Shown here in pieces: positions 62,377-62,507 of a stretch of 64,000 bases of DNA. Under the pieces are notes generated by a model. It was not told where the DNA came from. It ran no database searches and saw only the letters and a program-made list of their open reading frames with translations. The DNA is taken from assembly GCF_000348745.1 (NCBI RefSeq), contig NC_020812.1, positions 1,125,444 to 1,189,443 of the forward strand, given 5' to 3'. Origin of the DNA: Micavibrio aeruginosavorus EPB (GTDB lineage: Bacteria > Pseudomonadota > Alphaproteobacteria > Micavibrionales > Micavibrionaceae). The position numbers and the translations under genes are program-made. Position 1 is the stretch's first letter; the number at the start of each line of letters is the position of its first letter.

Positions 62377-62507
62377 GAATCATGAATCATTGGCGATTCA
62401 CCGTCAAGCATAAAATTCGATTCAATATGTAGAGTCAGTGTGTTATGGCAGAGTCTTGAGGTGAAAACAAAGGAGGAACAGACTCGGATTTCCGTGGTTT
62501 TTGAGTC
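62377..62507. promoter_or_regulatory. Cluster of eight GANTC sites upstream of ccrM
   Basis: GANTC occurs at 62377, 62384, 62395, 62419, 62432, 62451, 62481 and 62503, eight sites in 131 bp where chance gives about one per 256 bp. They fill the whole rnhB-ccrM gap. These are the target of the methyltransferase encoded next door, pointing to autoregulation by methylation state. Confidence 0.85.
62379..62407 (-). promoter_or_regulatory. Predicted ccrM promoter
   Basis: On the minus strand a -35 ttgacg (complement of 62402-62407) and a -10 catgat (complement of 62379-62384) are spaced by 17 bp, placing the RNA start near 62372, about 30 nt before ATG 62342. Three GANTC sites lie in or beside these boxes. 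Confidence 0.5.

Follow-up and report, generated by a model that had tools for sequence, protein, structure and literature searches.

The Caulobacter ccrM gene resembles the one described here in that it is probably regulated through the methylation of its promoter, 'most probably' in the words of one study (PMC3973325; also PMC2217572). It is activated by CtrA, whereas no CtrA box lies in the gap upstream of the present ccrM, a distinction drawn by description of the two promoters. The box TTAA-N7-TTAA was not found in the 300 bp upstream of ccrM and is present in two of 32 order relatives; CtrA control of the Caulobacter type was rejected here on account of its absence from the gap. Promoter P1 of ctrA in Caulobacter crescentus has, like the ccrM promoter here, a GANTC between -35 and -10, and the P1 site is bound by GcrA in a methylation-dependent manner. 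P1 differs in having one GANTC against eight, in serving ctrA, and in being repressed by CtrA as well. The Caulobacter ftsZ and mipZ promoters are cell-cycle promoters activated by CcrM methylation of GANTC, but they hold far fewer such sites, and the active state of ftsZ is the fully methylated one (PMC3708114).

A comparative study covering representatives of 13 orders concludes, in its excerpted text, that GcrA probably has ccrM among its core targets and that this was lost in Caulobacterales and Parvularculales (PMC7987155). Its prediction, made for most of the orders represented, concerns the same gene, sites, and proposed regulator as here, and the idea of ccrM as a GcrA target is already known from it; as described in that excerpt, the presence of YGAKTCK was scored within -200 to +100, without geometry. 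Relative to the same excerpt, the additions made here are the fixed geometry, the fusion with the core promoter, the record density, arrays of up to nine sites, the terminus position, and the adjacent DnaA box. Because control by own methylation looks lost in Caulobacterales according to this text, Caulobacter may be the wrong template.

The ccrM gene of Micavibrio aeruginosavorus EPB lies in the 64-kb stretch of DNA analysed here (the window; Table 1). Its product, initially annotated as the GANTC methyltransferase, is a CcrM orthologue, as judged from its match to the Caulobacter CcrM structure 6pbd (E=1.6e-153 over 34-387), its best solved relative, and from its catalytic and C-terminal RAMA domains. 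Against NF050803, it scores 608 bits over 32-384, below the 830-bit cut-off of that model. No restriction enzyme partner stands alongside, the neighbours being rnhB and a DUF4852 gene. The latter, of unknown function, occupies 60126-61127, tail to tail with ccrM. The rnhB-ccrM gap was bounded by the rnhB stop at 62510 and by the likely ccrM start, an ATG at 62342-62340 on the minus strand (MATKK, with AGGA before it). In a Micavibrionaceae population, as distinct from the present strain, DNA has been found methylated at GANTC (PMC9296519).

Table 1. Features of the ccrM locus, in window coordinates.
Feature	Coordinates	Strand	Remarks
ccrM, orphan GANTC adenine methyltransferase, 404 aa	61128..62342	-	N6_N4_Mtase (PF01555) and RAMA (PF18755) domains
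rnhB, ribonuclease HII	62510..63127	-	PF01351, E=1.5e-41; codirectional upstream neighbour; precedes ccrM in most relatives
rnhB-ccrM intergenic gap, with array and predicted ccrM promoter	62343..62509 (167 bp)	-	Limits set by ORFs; densest GANTC window of the genome
Predicted -35, TTGACG	62402..62407	-	Sole promoter-like match; TTGAC at fixed GANTC distance in relatives
Predicted -10, CATGAT	62379..62384	-	First base is the last base of GANTC 62384-62388; TCATGATTC invariant in 75 order genomes
Core GANTC 1	62395..62399	.	Spacer, directly after -35 (TTGAC-N3-GANTC)
Core GANTC 2	62384..62388	.	Spacer end, C is the first -10 position (TTGAC-N14-GANTC); most conserved site class-wide, 31/80 genomes
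Core GANTC 3	62377..62381	.	Overlaps -10; extra site typical of the order
Upstream GANTC	62419..62423	.	About 24 bp upstream of core site 1; similar position in many relatives and Rhodobacterales
Upstream GANTC	62432..62436	.	13 bp further upstream; GANTC-N8-GANTC pair; N8 pair in 15/32 order relatives
Outer GANTC	62451..62455	.	Position varies in relatives
Outer GANTC	62481..62485	.	Position varies in relatives
Outer GANTC	62503..62507	.	Beside rnhB stop; position varies in relatives
Perfect DnaA box TTATCCACA	62368..62376	+	Abuts array, over expected transcription start; within the order, at this place only in the genus

All eight GANTC coordinates of the initial annotation were recovered in this gap, and its expectation of about 0.5 sites per 131 bp is corrected to about 0.25 because GANTC is depleted, with 129 sites in the 64-kb window against 240 in shuffles. 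The density in a 398-kb sample of the genome is 1.88 per kb, or 0.25 per 131 bp, and the Poisson probability of at least eight sites is 2.7e-10 per 131-bp window and about 7e-4 genome-wide. Eight GANTC in 131 bp leave seven start-to-start steps to fit into 126 bp, and so must include a triplet whose gaps do not exceed 30 bp. An exhaustive search of the 2.46-Mb genome for such triplets returned 54 in total, comprising six in the rnhB-ccrM gap, five upstream of ftsZ, and at most two at any other place. Since the search was exhaustive, the gap holds the sole 131-bp window with at least eight GANTC in the genome, and the equally dense windows elsewhere that had been named as a ground for doubt do not occur. 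That chance or mutational clustering in an AT-richer gap produced the array is vanishingly improbable: the gap does have 43% G+C, with more A+T than the genome, but 100,000 shuffles of its own bases gave a mean of 0.6 GANTC and a maximum of six, never the real eight, and the geometry is conserved at the same gene across families, a conservation by which a chance origin is ruled out.

The promoter predicted in the initial annotation is the sole promoter-like match in 62200-62700. On the minus strand it reads TTGACG-GT-GAATC-GCCAAT-GATTC-AT-GATTC, with a 17-nt spacer and a promoter score of 9/12, and the three GANTC that had been assigned to it lie in the spacer, ending on the -10, and overlapping the -10, respectively. 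The mark of a GcrA-dependent methylated promoter, a GANTC inside or next to a predicted sigma70 -35/-10, is found here with three sites. The site ending on the -10 could also alter promoter strength simply by its sequence.

Absence of the array from the nearest relatives had likewise been named as a possible objection; the sites persist there, and of the order relatives whose upstream region is intact, nearly all have several GANTC preceding ccrM. The arrangement TTGAC-N3-GANTC-N6-GANTC-N2-GANTC was found in 75 of 142 order genomes, once per genome, against none for the reversed control. ccrM was located independently, and 74 of the 75 matches precede that of ccrM by -1 to 71 bp on its own strand; the sole exception is a genome where the match to ccrM falls on a different contig and is fragmentary. 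The exact triple is absent from about half of the order genomes, and those inspected show two-site or shifted variants. The sequence between the sites changes among relatives while the core GANTC stay, and the outer GANTC vary in number and position, with arrays reaching nine sites. Within the order genomes, conservation of the geometry is essentially confined to ccrM, and this comparison of genomes demonstrates strong purifying selection on the core geometry at ccrM. The first ccrM codons of many order relatives (e.g., L152, L156, and L159) hold a further GANTC (ATGTCGAGTCA).

The comparison across the class drew on 80 class-wide and 80 named ccrM upstream regions. TTGAC-N14-GANTC, with the site ending on the -10, occurs in 31 and 59 of these, respectively, and is the commonest or nearly commonest spacing; TTGAC-N3-GANTC occurs in 19 and 62, and N4 and N5 variants of the spacing are found in other families. 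When sequences were anchored on TTGAC only, GANTC not being consulted in placing them, GANTC stood at N3 in 12, 15, and 34 cases in three sets, against 0.1-0.2 expected from shuffles, and GANTC at N14 was also far above shuffles. The order has TTGACggcGAaTCg..aaTGA.TCATGATTc as its anchored consensus, and the named sequences from elsewhere, mostly Rhodobacterales, have TTGATTCAAAAAAGAAtTTGACggCGAATCg.ct.TGAcTCATctT. A 14-letter core searched in 241 class genomes gave 34 matches (28 at ccrM by coordinates, four elsewhere, and two unplaced), and a looser core marks ccrM in other families of the class. TTGAC-N14-GANTC was also considered as a general promoter type in the present genome and rejected, with seven matches against four for the reversed control.

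Because the geometry is so confined to ccrM, the best interpretation by a wide margin is that the gene is controlled through its own methylation. The array is probably the ccrM promoter joined to a sensor of CcrM's own methylation, acting most likely through GcrA. A gcrA gene is present (PF07750, E=1.2e-44, genome 2245693-2246151), as it is in 36 of 38 relatives, and GcrA, the known reader of methylated GANTC, is the likely sensor of core-promoter methylation. GcrA makes contact with sigma domain 2, and at methylated promoters it promotes formation of the open complex (PMC7403470); from the biochemistry of the family, it would bind methylated GANTC in the core and help the sigma70 RNA polymerase open the ccrM promoter. 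Passage of the replication fork would leave the sites hemimethylated and CcrM would be made, after which CcrM would remethylate its own promoter and change GcrA occupancy and output; the upstream GANTC would probably serve to increase GcrA occupancy locally or to make the switch sharper. A circuit without GcrA, in which adenine methylation in the spacer and -10 directly weakens the binding of RNA polymerase or another factor as a simple negative feedback, is quite unlikely. The sites do overlap the -10 and adjoin the -35, as such a circuit would need, but GcrA is a known reader so widely retained among the relatives, in Caulobacter, GANTC between -35 and -10 characterizes a promoter class whose activation falls at 40-60 min (PMC4287350), and GANTC mutations usually lower Caulobacter promoter activity (PMC3667746).

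The place of the gene on the chromosome bears on when a switch read by GcrA would act. GC skew, taken at 20 sampled places, stays positive as far as about 1.12 Mb and is negative at 1.24 Mb and beyond, with ccrM at 1.187 Mb, and the region at 1-16 kb holds hemE, rho, and mnmE, as identified from their translations, which is the usual origin neighbourhood in Alphaproteobacteria. From the skew flip and the position of these three genes, ccrM adjoins the replication terminus, which by GC skew falls at or beside the end of the window. The same two observations rule out a replication origin in the rnhB-ccrM gap. Near the terminus, the GANTC of ccrM would become hemimethylated only as replication ends, and the switch would act at that time; a promoter activated by hemimethylation at this place would be a detector of the end of replication. 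A place near the terminus does not belong to the design in general, since Rhodobacterales share the core and their ccrM is usually near the origin (PMC8116508).

The sign of the switch, hemimethylated or fully methylated as the active state, is the least certain step of the proposed mechanism, and in Caulobacter, ctrA P1 is activated by hemimethylation and ftsZ by full methylation (PMC8116508; PMC3708114). The initial annotation had proposed strong hemimethylation-dependent timing of ccrM expression; its element of methylation dependence gains from the evidence for own-methylation control, while the support stops short of the hemimethylated active state and of the timing. It is possible, if rather unlikely, that full methylation is the active state, GcrA needing a methylated core and a positive feedback or maintenance switch keeping ccrM on. 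Activity of the Caulobacter ftsZ promoter peaks in the fully methylated state (PMC3708114), GcrA binds methylated GANTC with fully methylated DNA as its best substrate (PMC3667746), and a terminus position keeps the sites fully methylated for most of the cycle, all of which would fit such a switch; it would, however, keep ccrM expressed for the greater part of the cycle, whereas expression in Caulobacter is known to be narrow, and a modelling paper, as a secondary source, gives hemimethylated DNA as the template from which Caulobacter ccrM is transcribed (PMC2217572).

The genome has 25 perfect DnaA boxes, four of which lie within 100 bp of one of the 36 GANTC triplet clusters, including those at ccrM, ftsZ, and gcrA (binomial p = 2e-6, an optimistic figure since both motifs prefer intergenic DNA). 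The second densest GANTC cluster, of ten sites with a perfect DnaA box, is upstream of ftsZ at genome 1837435-1837724 (L048:7436-7725), and ftsZ is a known CcrM-activated gene in Caulobacter (PMC3708114). Between ftsA and ftsZ stands an ORF of 282 aa and unknown function (L048:7750-8598), an unusual insertion for this gene cluster; the GANTC cluster itself is flanked by ftsZ and an unnamed gene that follows ftsA. Upstream of gcrA are a GANTC triplet and a DnaA box at genome 2246278-2246324 (L068:2086-2132); the box recurs there in 14 of 19 relatives (TGTGGATAA or a variant), and GANTC there is less widespread. Another GANTC cluster with an adjacent perfect DnaA box, at genome 1088204-1088332 (L059), precedes an unnamed gene (L059:3320-4312) that is a candidate for the same cell-cycle set. 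The DnaA box was rejected as a conserved part of the ccrM promoter in the order, the exact box being found in just three of 32 relatives, and is a feature of the genus only. That DnaA drives or represses ccrM in the genus through TTATCCACA, with methylation secondary and with ccrM, gcrA, and ftsZ forming a DnaA and methylation module, is unlikely: the box abuts the array, and the boxes near GANTC clusters and upstream of gcrA are as such a module would have them, but the rarity of the exact box at ccrM within the order speaks against it, and the association statistic ignores the intergenic preference of both motifs.

Returning to control of ccrM by its own methylation, GANTC fused to the -35 and -10 at fixed spacing may be ancestral to much of Alphaproteobacteria, with autoregulation coming first, the CtrA control of Caulobacter being a later replacement, and the terminus place in Micavibrio turning the switch into an end-of-replication detector; this is a tentative proposal, which we hold slightly less probable than its contrary. 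How CcrM comes to be restricted to a single point in the cell cycle is understood chiefly in Caulobacter, in which CtrA controls it. A fixed class-wide geometry by which CcrM's own marks are read points to a circuit that is simpler and more general. The conserved geometry gives the exact bases to mutate, and the sequence signature allows ccrM promoters, and perhaps others gated by methylation, to be located in bacteria yet to be studied.
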